Origin: Acidovorax sp. A1169 | GTDB lineage: Bacteria > Pseudomonadota > Gammaproteobacteria > Burkholderiales > Burkholderiaceae_C | Reading direction: 5' to 3' | NCBI RefSeq assembly: GCF_030704685.1 | Contig: NZ_JAUZDX010000018.1 | Span: forward strand, 62,001-126,000 | Length of the DNA stretch: 64,000 nucleotides | In this document: positions 5,341 through 30,734 of the stretch, one piece after another | Position numbering within the stretch: position 1 is the first letter of the stretch | Layout: every line of letters starts with the position of its first letter | Notes under the pieces: generated by a model | Databases searched by the model: none | What the model was told of the DNA's origin: nothing | What the model saw: the letters and a program-made list of their open reading frames with translations, nothing else | Program-made: the position numbers and the translations under genes

Positions 5341-6060
5341 TCAGAGCGCAGCGTTGTGGTAGATCTCCTGGGCATCGTCCAGGTCTTCCAGGACATCGAG
5401 CAATTTTTGCATCCGCACGGCGTCTTCGCCCTCCAGCTCGATGGTGTTTTCAGCGCGCATGGTGACCTCGGACACCTCGGGCGTCAGGCCTGCGGCCTCC
5501 AGGGCGTTCTTCACGGCCTCAAAGTCGGCCGGCGCGGTCAGCACCTCGATGGCGCCGTCCCCATCGGTCAGCACGTCCTCGGCGCCGGCGTCGAGCGCCA
5601 CTTCCATGACCTTGTCCTCGTCGGTGCCCGGCGCAAAGATCAGCTGGCCGCAGTGCTTGAACTGGAACACCACCGAACCCTCGGTGCCCATGCTGCCACC
5701 GTGCTTGCTGAAGGCATGGCGCACCTCGGCCACCGTGCGCACGCGGTTGTCGGTCATGGTGTCGATCATGATGGCCACGCCACCGATGCCATAGCCTTCG
5801 TAGCGGATTTCCTCGTAGGTCAGGCCCTCGGCGTTGCCGGTGGCCTTGTCGATGTTGTATTTGATGCGGTCGGCCGGCATGTTGGCCGCCTTGGCCTTGT
5901 CCACCGCCAGGCGCAGGCGGGGGTTGGCAGACAGGTCCCCGCCGCCCGAACGGGCCGCCACGGTGATTTCGCGAATGATGCGGGTCCAGATCTTGCCGCG
6001 TTTTTCATCCTGCCGCCCCTTGCGGTGCTGGATATTCGCCCATTTGCTGTGTCCTGCCAC
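5341..6060 (-). CDS. yebC: YebC/PmpR family translation or transcription factor
   Basis: A 239-residue canonical YebC protein beginning with the invariant [22 protein letters not shown] (GTG start). Members were named as DNA-binding regulators (PmpR), while recent work on bacterial YebC and mitochondrial TACO1 supports a role in translation through proline stretches on the ribosome. Conserved blocks include [37 protein letters not shown] and [15 protein letters not shown] divergent paralogue is encoded at 30021-30734. It is followed on the same strand by purD after 80 nt. Confidence 0.95.
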
Positions 6061-26917: not shown

Positions 26918-28192
26918 TCAGCCCGCCACCACGTTGCACTCCCGGCGCAGCAGCGCCAGGGCATCGTGCATCTGGTAGTCCATGTCGCTCAGCAGCGTGG
27001 CCTGCGACTCCTGCACGAAGCTGTTCCACAGGTCCACATAGTCGGCCTGGCGTGCGCCAGGCGCATTGGCGCGGATGAAATCCGCGGCCAGCGCGGGCTG
27101 CCAGCCGCTCTTGCGCAGCTTGCGCACCAGGCTGGCGGCGGTCTTTTCGGTCAGCACGGTCTTTTTGGGCGTGCCGGTGGCCAGACACAGGAACAGAGTG
27201 AGCAGGCTGGGCTCGTCCTCGTTGCCCTGCACCGTCTTCGCCCAGGTCTTGCTGGCGGGCTGGGGCGCATCGCCCTCCTCGTCCAGGTCGGCCAGGTTGC
27301 GGTGGTAGTCGTCCACCTCGGCCAGCGGGTCGTCGAGCAGAAAATAGCGCGCGCGGAAACCGCTGGTGGGCCGCAGCAGGTTGCGCAGCGGGGTGGCAGC
27401 GTCGAGCAGCTTGGGCAGGTCGGCCAGCACGGCAGCGCGCTGCGCCTCCACCACGTCCTTCAGGTCCACAGGCAGGCCCGGCGGCAGCGACAGCCTGACC
27501 TGGTCGGCCGTGGTCTTCTTCTTGCGGTGGGCGGTGGCGATCTTCTCGAACACCACGGCGTTGGGCCAGTCACCCACCTTGGGGGCCAGGGCCTGCAGCA
27601 GCAAGCCGGCGCGGACCACGGCCTCGGCGTCGGCGCCCGACTCTTCGAGCGCATCGTCGTCCAGGTCGTACTGCTCGGCCATCCACCGGGCGGCGCTGAT
27701 GGCCGCTGCGATCTGGCTGCGGCGCACCAGCTCGGCGCGGTAATCGGCATGGCTGCGCAGGGACCACACGGCCAGCAGCGGCGTTTCGGCATCGGCACAG
27801 CCGCCCATGCCGAAGTTGCTGCTCTCGGGCATGGCGATCAGGCGCTTGAGCATGTCCGAGCCGCCCTTGGAGCGCGACAGGAAGGAGTTGTCGCGCAGCG
27901 ACACCGCCGCCTTCTGCAGGTCGCCCTCCGTGGTGTCCAGCAGGTACAGGCTGATCATGTTGACCATGCGGTCACGGGCCTTTTCCAGCTCCGGGCGCAG
28001 GAACTCGCTGCCGAAGTAGCGTGCGATCTGCACCATGCCCTTGGGGGCGTCGGTGTTCATCGCAGCCAACTTCGCCGCGTCGATGATGCCGTGCGCCACG
28101 CCGTGGGCCAGGGCCTTTTCAAAGAACGGGCGCGCGTCGTGCAGTTGCAGCGCGTTGGCCGCCGGCGCAGAAGACATTTCGTGCTCGGACAT
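26918..28192 (-). CDS. Unknown helical protein, last gene of the YebC2/J-domain run
   Basis: A 424-residue soluble, mostly helical protein I do not recognise. It has no signal peptide or membrane span. Landmarks are ARPFFEKALAHGVAHGIID at the start, RMVNMISLYLLDTTEGDLQ at about 75-93, an acidic patch DLDDDALEESGADAEAV, and the close LLSDMDYQMHDALALLRRE. A basic segment HRKKKTTADQVRLS lies near 218. It begins 8 nt after the 251-residue gene's stop, so the two are certainly co-transcribed. The start MSEHEMSSAPAANAL was chosen over a longer frame that runs antisense-like into the upstream gene. Confidence 0.8.
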   Translation of the reverse strand: MSEHEMSSAPAANALQLHDARPFFEKALAHGVAHGIIDAAKLAAMNTDAPKGMVQIARYFGSEFLRPELEKARDRMVNMISLYLLDTTEGDLQKAAVSLRDNSFLSRSKGGSDMLKRLIAMPESSNFGMGGCADAETPLLAVWSLRSHADYRAELVRRSQIAAAISAARWMAEQYDLDDDALEESGADAEAVVRAGLLLQALAPKVGDWPNAVVFEKIATAHRKKKTTADQVRLSLPPGLPVDLKDVVEAQRAAVLADLPKLLDAATPLRNLLRPTSGFRARYFLLDDPLAEVDDYHRNLADLDEEGDAPQPASKTWAKTVQGNEDEPSLLTLFLCLATGTPKKTVLTEKTAASLVRKLRKSGWQPALAADFIRANAPGARQADYVDLWNSFVQESQATLLSDMDYQMHDALALLRRECNVVAG

Positions 28193-28200
28193 GAAGAAAG

Positions 28201-28956
28201 TCAGATAGCCGACTCTTCGTCGGATGCGCGCGCAGCAGGCGTCGCCTTGCCGCGGTCGGTCTCGCTGGTCTCGAACTTGCCGTCGTCCTCTTCGGCCGCC
28301 TCGTCGCCCTCCTCCAGGCCCAGGTCGAAGGCACGGGCCTTGGCGCGCAGCACCAGCAGGGTTTCGATGAACAGGTCGCGGCACTCATAGCGCAGCAGCC
28401 AGGCCATCTGCATCCAGTCGCGGTCGGCCACTTCGTCCTGGTCAATGCGCGGCTGCACATAGCCCGAGGCCAGCAGTTCGTCGTCGGTCAGCGTGGGGCC
28501 GTAGTCTTCCACCGCGTCGAAAGTGCCGGTGCGGGCAAAGGCCTCGATGCGGCTCCACTTTTCGGCAAAGTAGTTGGCCAGGGCTTCGCTGCCGCCCTCC
28601 AGGTCGCCAATGGCGGTGAGAAAGGCCACGGGGTCGGCATCGTCGCGAAACACCACGGCATTGACCATGTTGCGCAGGTGCGTGTGGGTGAGGTCCTTGT
28701 ACTGCTTTTCGAGCACCATGGCGCGCGCAAACTGCTCGGGCGTGACCAGCAGGTTGACCACCGAGGCCTTGGAGTCGTCGTACTCGCGCATCACGGCCAG
28801 GATGTCCTTGGGCGCGAGCTGGTCGAGCACCACCATCAGGGCGTTGTCGCCATCGGTGTCGGCCAGCTCGGCCAGCGCCGACTCGGCGCCCACGATGTCG
28901 CCGGCCGCGATGAGGCTGGTGGTCTTGGTGATCAGGGCCAGGTGGCTATTGCTCAT
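28201..28956 (-). CDS. Unknown acidic helical protein
   Basis: A 251-residue cytoplasmic protein, not recognised. The first ~120 residues are helical (SLIAAGDIVGAESALAELAD; LDQLAPKDILAVMREYDD), faintly like an MgtE-N or TPR-like helical array. The middle has WLLRYECRDLFIETLLVLRA, and the last 40 residues are highly acidic and disordered (DLGLEEGDEAAEEDDGK). ATG start with an AAAGGAAA ribosome site. It lies between the repeat at 29026-29110 and the 424-residue gene, 8 nt apart from the latter. Confidence 0.82.
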   Translation of the reverse strand: MSNSHLALITKTTSLIAAGDIVGAESALAELADTDGDNALMVVLDQLAPKDILAVMREYDDSKASVVNLLVTPEQFARAMVLEKQYKDLTHTHLRNMVNAVVFRDDADPVAFLTAIGDLEGGSEALANYFAEKWSRIEAFARTGTFDAVEDYGPTLTDDELLASGYVQPRIDQDEVADRDWMQMAWLLRYECRDLFIETLLVLRAKARAFDLGLEEGDEAAEEDDGKFETSETDRGKATPAARASDEESAI

Positions 28957-29025
28957 GGCGGTTTTCCTTTAATTTATCCGTTGCGCCATGCGGTACCCGC
29001 AGGCCTTTGAAACTGGAGCTCCAAA

Positions 29026-29110
29026 GGCCAGGGCCGCCGCGCAAGGGCCGCCCCGCCGCGCTGGCGGCGTCCCCCTTTGGGGGGAAGGCGCGAGGCGACT
29101 CAGGGGGGGG
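29026..29110 (-). repeat. GC-rich 3'-end repeat, copy B
   Basis: Read on the minus strand it begins CCCCCTGAGTCGCCTCGCGC just after the stop of the 191-residue gene (29113). It continues through a CCCCCC/GGGGG hairpin and a GCCGCC/GGCGGC-type stem and ends GGGGCGGCCCTTGCGC, as in copies A and C. It is the only element in the 156-nt gap between the 191- and 251-residue genes, so it splits the run and may reduce expression of the two distal genes. Confidence 0.8.
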
Positions 29111-29112
29111 CT

Positions 29113-29688
29113 TCATGCTTTTCGGTCAAAGCCTACGTCGGACAGCCAGTTGTCGCTGGCCTCGTCGCGCGAGCGGGCGTTGTGCGGGTCGGCGGCGTCG
29201 TCAGCGCTCAGGTTGTCGTAATCGTCGTCGTGCTCGGCGGCGTCTTCGCCATCGCCCTCTTCCTCGGCGTCGGCATGCTGGGCCGCAGGCGCCAGGCGCG
29301 AATGCACGTGCAGGTACTCCAGGCCCGCCGCCACGGCCATGAAGCGCTCGCCACCGGGCTCGGCCAATACCGTCTTCGCCAGGCCTGCAGCCCAGGGTTC
29401 GAGCAGCACGGCGCCATCGGCCAGGGTGCCCCAGGCCGGCAGGTCGTCAGCGCCCCGGCCGATCAGGCTCTCCAGCGCGGCAGGCCGCGCAAAGCGAAAG
29501 CCCTGGTGAAAGACCACAGCCACCATCTCGGGGGCCAGCTCCATCATCTGCACGAGAAAGGCGATTTCGCTGCGCTTTTGCGTGAGCCGCTTGCGCAGCA
29601 CGTCCTTGCCTTCGGAATCCTGGGTCAGGTCATCGAGCTCGGCCTGGTAGGCCGAACGCAGGTCATAAAAATAAGGAGAGAGTTTCAC
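29113..29688 (-). CDS. Unknown protein with acidic tail, coupled to a J-domain gene
   Basis: A 191-residue protein, not recognised. N-terminal part: MKLSPYFYDLRSAYQAELDDLTQ with a helix pair including KRLTQKRSEIAFLVQMMELAPEM. The middle carries FARPAALESLIGRGADDLPAWGTL, and from about residue 140 it is a run of Asp, Glu, Ala and His (DAEEEGDGEDAAEHDDDYDN). It starts at GTG overlapping the J-domain stop by four bases, so the two are translationally coupled and may form one functional unit. GTG is the only start that fits the overlap. Confidence 0.8.
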   Translation of the reverse strand: MKLSPYFYDLRSAYQAELDDLTQDSEGKDVLRKRLTQKRSEIAFLVQMMELAPEMVAVVFHQGFRFARPAALESLIGRGADDLPAWGTLADGAVLLEPWAAGLAKTVLAEPGGERFMAVAAGLEYLHVHSRLAPAAQHADAEEEGDGEDAAEHDDDYDNLSADDAADPHNARSRDEASDNWLSDVGFDRKA

Positions 29689-29969
29689 GAAGGAAGAATG
29701 CCTTGGGTATAGGTGTGCCAGATTTCCTGGGCGGTCTGCAGCGGGTCGTCCAGCAGGTTGCGGCGGCGGTTGTCGTCGTAGGCCTGGCGGGCCTCGTCGT
29801 CGGACAGCACGTCGTACGCCTTCTGGACCAACTGGAAGCGCTGCGCAGCATCGGGCGCCGGGTTGCGGTCCGGGTGGTAGAAGGCCGCCTTCTGGCGGTA
29901 GGCCTTCTTGATGTCGGCGAGCGAGGCGTTGGCCGCCAGCCCGAGGGCAGCATAGTGGTCTGCGGTCAT
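29685..29969 (-). CDS. Solo J-domain (DnaJ-like) protein
   Basis: A 94-residue protein made of a J domain and a short tail. The HPD motif is at residues 32-34 (FYHPDRNPAPD), preceded by the basic helix II IKKAYRQKAAF and followed by helix III QLVQKAYDVLSDDEARQAYD. It lacks the G/F, zinc and C-terminal domains of DnaJ, so it is a class C co-chaperone that would stimulate DnaK and hand over a specific client. The coupled 191-residue protein is the obvious candidate partner. The yebC paralogue lies 51 nt upstream. Confidence 0.93.
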   Translation of the reverse strand: MTADHYAALGLAANASLADIKKAYRQKAAFYHPDRNPAPDAAQRFQLVQKAYDVLSDDEARQAYDDNRRRNLLDDPLQTAQEIWHTYTQGILPS

Positions 29970-30020
29970 GGATTTGAAGGGTTGCTGCGGCCAGGCGCTG
30001 GCCTCGCAGCCACCAGCCTT

Positions 30021-30734
30021 TTAACCACCCAGGCTCACGTAAACGTTCTGCACGTCGTCGTTGGAGTCGATGGCCGCCAGAAAGGTTTCCACTTCTTCCA
30101 GCTGTTCTGCCGTGAGGTTGGCGGGGTTCACCGGGTTCTTGGGCTTGTAGCCCAGCTTGGCCGACAGCACCGTGAAGCCCTGGGCCGGCAGCGCGCGGCT
30201 CACCAGATCCAGGTCGGTCGGGTCGGTCCAGAAGGTGGTGGTGCCTTCTTCGTCGCCGGCTTCAAAGTCCTGCGCACCGGCCTCGATGGCGGCCAGTTCG
30301 GGGTCGGCACCGGCGCTGGCGGGCTCGGCTTCGATCATGCCCACGTGGTTGAAGTCCCAGGCCACCGAGCCGGAGGTACCCAGTTGGCCCTTGCGGAACA
30401 GCACGCGCATCTCGGGCGCAGTGCGGTTGACGTTGTCGGTCAGGCACTCGACCATCACGGCCACTTGGTGCGGGGCAAAGCCCTCATAGATCACGTGTTC
30501 GTAGTTGACCGCGTCGGCGCCCGTGCCCGAGCCCTTCTTGATGGCGCGCTCCAGCGTTTCCTTGGGCATGGAGACCTTGCGGGCCTGCTCGACCACGAGC
30601 CGCAGGCGTGCATTGCCGGCCGGGTCGGCACCGCCGCGCGCAGCGACCATGATTTCCTTGACCAGCTTGCCAAACAGCTTGCCCTTGGCATCAGCGACCT
30701 GTGCCTTGCCTTTTGCTTTCCACTGCGCGCCCAT
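30021..30734 (-). CDS. Second YebC/PmpR-family paralogue
   Basis: A 237-residue divergent YebC protein starting [19 protein letters not shown] in place of the canonical MAGHSKW. It keeps [42 protein letters not shown] and [15 protein letters not shown]. Members of this second branch (YeeN-like) have a different basic N-terminus from canonical YebC (here 5341-6060). In the family, a ribosome-associated role at proline stretches has been proposed. It heads a five-gene minus-strand run with the J-domain protein and three unknown proteins. Confidence 0.93.

Follow-up and report, generated by a model that had tools for sequence, protein, structure and literature searches.

A run of five open reading frames (ORFs) lies on the minus strand of a 64,000-nt stretch of Acidovorax sp. 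A1169 DNA (contig NZ_JAUZDX010000018.1, positions 62,001–126,000 of the forward strand; the whole stretch is referred to here as the window). It consists of a YebC/TACO1-family gene followed by genes for a solo J-domain protein and for proteins of 191, 251 and 424 amino acids (aa) (Table 1). An initial annotation had proposed that the five genes form an undescribed, lineage-specific quality-control module linked to the ribosome. Our analysis indicates that the four distal genes probably constitute a Burkholderiales branch of the atcJABC operon, in which AtcJ would bring DnaK, by way of AtcC and AtcB, to a client for growth in the cold, and that the YebC gene is a lineage-specific neighbour, not part of the core of atcJABC.

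Table 1. Features of the five-gene run, in window coordinates
Feature	Position	Strand	Properties
YebC/TACO1-family gene	30734–30021	minus	237 aa, 25.2 kDa; Pfam PF01709 and PF20772
Predicted atcJ homologue, solo J-domain	29969–29685	minus	94 aa, 10.7 kDa; Pfam DnaJ, 3.4e-23
Predicted atcA homologue	29688–29113	minus	191 aa, 20.9 kDa, isoelectric point (pI) 4.5; GTG start
Predicted atcB homologue	28956–28201	minus	251 aa, 27.6 kDa, pI 4.3
Predicted atcC homologue	28192–26918	minus	424 aa, 46.3 kDa
atcA–atcB spacer, including the atcA stop codon	28990–29115		largely a G+C-rich interspersed repeat

All five ORFs were found where the initial annotation had placed them, with the spacings it gave: 51 nt between the YebC gene and the J gene, a 4-nt overlap (GTGA) of the J stop with the start of the 191-aa ORF, and 8 nt between the 251- and 424-aa ORFs. 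It had omitted a repeat-bearing gap of 156 nt between the 191- and 251-aa ORFs. Among the five products, only the DnaJ and TACO1/YebC domains exceeded Pfam cut-offs; the 191-, 251- and 424-aa proteins had no Pfam family above cut-off, and DUF6890 on the 251-aa protein fell below it (16.2 versus 23.6 bits). An origin as defence or phage genes was rejected, as PADLOC recognized none of the five proteins and PHROGs none of three at an E value of 0.01.

Gene order was compared in two sets of loci. The first, an even sample of the family, supplied loci of 13 relatives; one of these (L024) holds atcC only, on a contig that ends just upstream of it, and was left out of the order counts. The second set, the named loci, comprises the 80 among 378 that most resemble the window in AtcB, and so leans to Acidovorax. 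The initial annotation held that its proposal would fall if the genes were not neighbours in relatives. With L024 set aside, the order J-A-B-C was intact in all 12 remaining family loci, so that the run is beyond chance. Among the named loci, J-A-B was intact in 80/80, with J before A in every case, and atcC was present in 77, the other three stopping at contig edges. Among the gamma and divergent Burkholderiales loci treated below, L064 and L167 are without atcJ, at contig ends. In the window, too, the four genes are adjacent in the AtcJABC order.

All proteins were scanned against 18,950 NCBIfam models, which include equivalog models for AtcJ (NF050028, curated cut-off 150 bits), AtcA (NF047888, 200 bits), AtcB (NF047889, 440 bits) and AtcC (NF047890, 370 bits). 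The window J protein matched the AtcJ model over residues 4–87 at 58 bits, and the 424-aa protein matched the AtcC model over residues 18–104 at 16 bits (E 0.0057), while the window AtcA and AtcB matched none of the 18,950 models. As a positive control, one gamma locus (see below) passed all four cut-offs, with 183, 285, 505 and 506 bits for AtcJ, AtcA, AtcB and AtcC, respectively. The window genes are best described as putative homologues outside the NCBIfam equivalogs, not as members of them. Among the aligned relatives, 31 of 41 matched the AtcC model, the best at 1.4e-5 (the next family was matched by 2 of 41), and 8 of 13 family members matched the AtcA model (best 6.9e-7). Seven divergent proteins, chosen by their scores with gamma hidden Markov models (HMMs), were also tested; four matched the corresponding NCBIfam model and three matched none. 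These four matched the AtcA model at 4.2e-5, the AtcB model at 1e-4 and 0.0016 (two divergent Burkholderiales relatives) and, in a group that bridges the two forms of AtcC (see below), the AtcC model at 3.1e-8 over residues 21–259.

The J protein contains HPD in its J-domain and has no space for G/F or zinc domains, placing it in class C, and its C-terminal end, DDPLQTAQEIWHTYTQGILPS, holds a 21-residue tail with a P-x7-W motif (PLQTAQEIW). In its small size, its HPD and its tail of ∼21 residues it has the traits expected of an AtcJ. The P-x7-W motif was found in 12/12 family relatives, in 80/80 named loci (79 by pattern, the 80th by its printed tail) and in all 13 J proteins of the gamma loci, including ten main-type AtcJ; it was retained in 8 of 14 J proteins of divergent Burkholderiales. 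The window protein shares 33% identity with a gamma AtcJ scoring above the curated cut-off, and an hhalign comparison of the J protein with gamma AtcJ gave 99.4%. Weber et al. reportedly described P-x7-W as an AtcJ signature in 2023; their abstract reportedly covers beta- and gammaproteobacteria, the PX7W motif and operons with atcA, atcB and atcC, and their title refers to conservation of atc in environmental proteobacteria.

The gamma loci came from a search with the NCBI AtcC family through the genomes of an order that was reached by way of its SeqA marker and is presumably a broadly defined Enterobacterales. Matches were present in 38 of 295 genomes, 34 of them above the cut-off, and 14 loci with 398 ORFs in all were fetched, ten belonging to the main type and four matching weakly (L061–L064). 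The latter four represent a second gamma atc-type operon with shorter proteins, A having 153 aa and B 215–217 aa, and two of three J proteins having 86 aa; their AtcC proteins score 38–43 bits against the cut-off of 370, and the J protein of L062 63 bits against 150. HMMs built from the window proteins and their family relatives (beta HMMs) were then run blind against the 398 ORFs. With the beta AtcC HMM, the ten main-type gamma AtcC took ranks 1–10 (3.4e-8 to 0.013), and with the beta AtcA HMM the ten main-type AtcA did likewise (4.6e-12 to 0.0014). The beta AtcB HMM placed the 14 genes at the AtcB position in 14 of the first 15 places (1.3e-5 and weaker), with one AtcA gene between them. The occurrence of atc in this order, and in six other Burkholderiales families, does not agree with the lineage specificity put forward in the initial annotation.

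In a first round of profile–profile comparisons (hhalign), AtcA of the two groups aligned at 90% and AtcC at 89%, whereas AtcB gave 6% and 36% against the two gamma types and 60% when the gamma sequences were pooled (L060, with an overcalled start, was excluded from the gamma AtcB alignment). After divergent Burkholderiales were added, the values rose to 94% for AtcA and 92% for AtcC, and AtcB reached 94.5% against the pooled gamma sequences, 64% against the main type and 98% against the bridging group. Unlike pairs gave 2.2% at most. The bridging group consists of three divergent Burkholderiales loci (L171–L173), whose AtcB and AtcC alignments each contain at least one overcalled start; the window-side AtcC aligned to it at 97%, and its AtcC to gamma AtcC at 94%. 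In these three loci the proline of the J tail is replaced by alanine, an unrecognized ORF with an acidic tail fills the place of atcA, and AtcC bridges the beta and gamma forms, that of L172 being read as ∼300 aa from an internal start. The 12 other divergent Burkholderiales loci kept the atc order as far as their contigs reach. Taken together, these comparisons argue for homology of A, B and C to the Shewanella-type proteins, with that of AtcB, which is traced through divergent Burkholderiales intermediates, being the weakest of the three.

Several observations weigh against this assignment. The window J and C proteins lie far under the equivalog cut-offs, A and B have no match there, and generic DnaJ models beat AtcJ on the window J protein (77 versus 58 bits). 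The AtcB model was matched by none of the 41 aligned relatives at E 0.1, although chance families do match them, PEP mutase in 6 of 41 (best 0.0086), and the AtcA HMM cross-matched acidic AtcB tails from E 0.0076. The C genes of the second gamma type were not found by the beta AtcC HMM (E 2 or worse), and hhalign gave 3.1% for C and 0.6% for A against this type, as well as 0.7% for the bridging C against second-type C. The bridging B aligned to main gamma B at 2.2%. In the divergent Burkholderiales, the tail tryptophan was absent from 3 of 14 J proteins, and the proline from another 3 that retain the tryptophan. The window AtcC, at 424 aa, is considerably longer than gamma AtcC at ∼297 aa. Finally, AtcA is dispensable in the cold in Shewanella, according to PMC6715715.

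Structure models built from 41-row alignments (AlphaFold2) were obtained for AtcB and AtcC. The AtcC model is all-helical with a mean predicted local distance difference test (pLDDT) of 91.6, weak near residues 301–310, and no solved structural relative was found for it. Residues 20–206 of AtcC align to gamma AtcC and residues 56–280 to the bridging group. Nothing of gamma AtcC or of the bridging group aligned beyond residue 280, and the C-terminal part is therefore the most likely site of the ∼125 surplus residues. AtcB was modelled (pLDDT 78.5) as a helical body followed by a low-confidence acidic tail ending in DEESAI, and the best structural neighbours of the model were MgtE-type cytosolic domains with middling Z scores. 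The DEESAI end was found in 78/80 named loci, while gamma AtcB has a different conserved acidic tail. AtcA likewise has an acidic linker and a conserved C-terminal GFD.K, and GF[DE].K occurred within its last 12 residues in 80/80 named loci. AtcA and AtcB share an arrangement in which an acidic linker leads into a brief and strongly conserved C-terminal stretch, comparable to the conserved tail of AtcJ, and the tails of AtcA and AtcB look like docking motifs.

The closest described system is atcJABC of Shewanella oneidensis (SO_1850, SO_1849, SO_1848 and SO_1846; Maillot et al. 2019, PMC6715715). According to that paper, the operon has the same order J-A-B-C, AtcJ is a 94-aa protein with a 21-residue AtcC-binding tail, a length of protein and tail shared by the window J protein, and AtcA and AtcB are of similar mass (20 and 29 kDa, compared with 20.9 and 27.6 kDa). 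All four window proteins also have remote sequence homology to gamma relatives. The paper further reports that AtcJ binds DnaK and AtcC, that AtcC binds AtcB, and that deletion of J, B or C leads to cold sensitivity, J, B and C but not A being required at 7°C. In addition, a meeting report has Shewanella AtcB contacting RNA polymerase (PMC7871303). The window differs in the mass of AtcC (46 kDa, versus 34 kDa given in PMC6715715), in the 4-nt overlap of the J and A genes, which are 120 bp apart in the S. oneidensis operon as described there, and in the YebC gene upstream; its four Atc proteins are also all under the NCBI equivalog cut-offs. The atcJABC system has been described since 2019, and the Acidovorax operon is best placed as a new, distant member of it and not as the undescribed system that the initial annotation had supposed, a proposal we reject on homology. 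A literature search for AtcJ with Acidovorax returned nothing, which says little, as the 2023 conservation paper was outside its reach.

By homology, the J-domain of the Acidovorax AtcJ would bind DnaK and stimulate it through HPD, and the short P-x7-W tail would dock on AtcC. AtcC would hold AtcB, and AtcB would lead the complex, together with DnaK, to a chosen client, which could be RNA polymerase as reported in Shewanella, with the outcome that growth is maintained at low temperature. YebC would act separately from this complex. Because beta and gamma AtcC align over residues 20–206, we predict this part to be the docking site of the AtcJ tail. However far atc operons have diverged, they keep HPD, AtcC residues 20–206, the AtcB body and, in most cases, the J tail, and these parts point to contacts that matter. 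Of the quality-control module in the initial annotation, a conserved J protein with three partners, presumably linked to DnaK, thus survives. The assignment would also suggest what to call large families of unnamed proteins and which function to test for them: the relatives returned by three protein searches numbered 3219, 2694 and 1976, and among the matches listed (120 per search) the names shown were hypothetical or uncharacterized protein only.

Alternatively, the branch may be homologous to atcJABC but have changed its job: using the longer AtcC as a new adaptor, it would direct DnaK to a different client or serve under a different stress, and not mainly in the cold. We regard this as possible but doubtful. 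In its favor are the added length of AtcC, whose C-terminal half is conserved among relatives, the strong divergence of AtcA and AtcB, and the patchy spread of the operon: of 100 genomes of the family, 14 have AtcC, and of 300 genomes of the order, 17 have AtcB. Expression of the Shewanella operon is itself nearly equal from 7 to 37°C according to PMC6715715. However, most J proteins retain both HPD and the tail motif, between which the proposed connection to DnaK would run, and the gene order is likewise kept in most, and we favor the conserved role of an atcJABC operon.

The ribosome link of the initial annotation had the YebC gene as its sole ground. The product of this gene matched NF009044 at 265 bits (cut-off 196), and the gene adjoins atcJ in 41 of the 78 named loci with upstream room (41/80 overall; L124 and L130 lack such room), namely in Acidovorax, 2/3 Xylophilus, 2/2 Simplicispira, 1/2 Giesbergeria and further near kin. 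It was absent upstream in Xylophilus sp. ASV27, Giesbergeria anulus, an uncultured Acidovorax (L107), Paracidovorax, Rhodoferax and Polaromonas. One locus (L106) holds a second YebC, hence its YebC-to-J gap figure of −5691. A close paralogue of the YebC protein (at least 68% identity; two are split into fragments) occurs in 49/100 family genomes, and in 12 of the 14 with atc compared with 37 of the other 86 (Fisher p 0.0035, uncorrected for kinship). This adjacency and co-occurrence could be taken to mean that the five genes serve ribosome quality control as one module, YebC and the J protein acting jointly on stalled ribosomes, which we consider very unlikely. In the even family sample, counting the window, 12 loci have upstream room (L023 lacks it); the YebC gene adjoins atcJ in 3 of them and does not in the other 9, and it was beside atcJ in 0/13 gamma loci and 0/14 other-Burkholderiales loci that hold atcJ. 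Elsewhere, different genera have different genes upstream of atcJ, among them aldehyde dehydrogenase-like and ABC ATPase-like ones (named by eye), and 37 of the 49 genomes with a close paralogue are without atc. Furthermore, what Shewanella AtcB is reported to contact is RNA polymerase and not the ribosome (PMC7871303). On its distribution, YebC was rejected as a core atc part, which spares the pursuit of a supposed new ribosome quality-control system based on a neighbouring gene.

The label YebC2, given to this protein in the initial annotation, is not supported by pairwise comparison. YebC2 of B. subtilis and YeeN of E. coli belong to the same YebC/TACO1 family, and YeeN falls in the YebC2 clade in a published tree (PMC11990639). 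In pairwise BLASTP alone, the window protein scored higher with E. coli YebC (40% identity, 139 bits) than with YeeN (35%, 115 bits), and on this comparison membership of the YebC2 clade was rejected. A canonical YebC paralogue (a 239-aa ORF at 5341–6060 on the minus strand, 55% identical to E. coli YebC) is also present in the window, at a distance of ∼24 kb from the divergent gene.

The YebC gene of Acidovorax and its near kin shares its strand and perhaps its transcript with atc. It is conceivable, if highly improbable, that yebC-atcJABC is one transcript in these bacteria, coupling an RNA-polymerase-side DnaK adaptor, formed by AtcB and the enlarged AtcC, to translation-side YebC; if true, such a transcript would be a link between polymerase and ribosome at times of cold.

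Within the operon, most of the atcA–atcB spacer is occupied by the G+C-rich repeat, which is ∼110 bp long. At least 54 matching pieces are present in the window's own genome (40 of 187 candidates were scored). In the named loci, similar repeats were detected in 33 of 73 spacers of 60–400 nt, only in A–B and B–C gaps, and in no yebC–atcJ gap among those tested. The repeat may therefore tune expression inside the operon.

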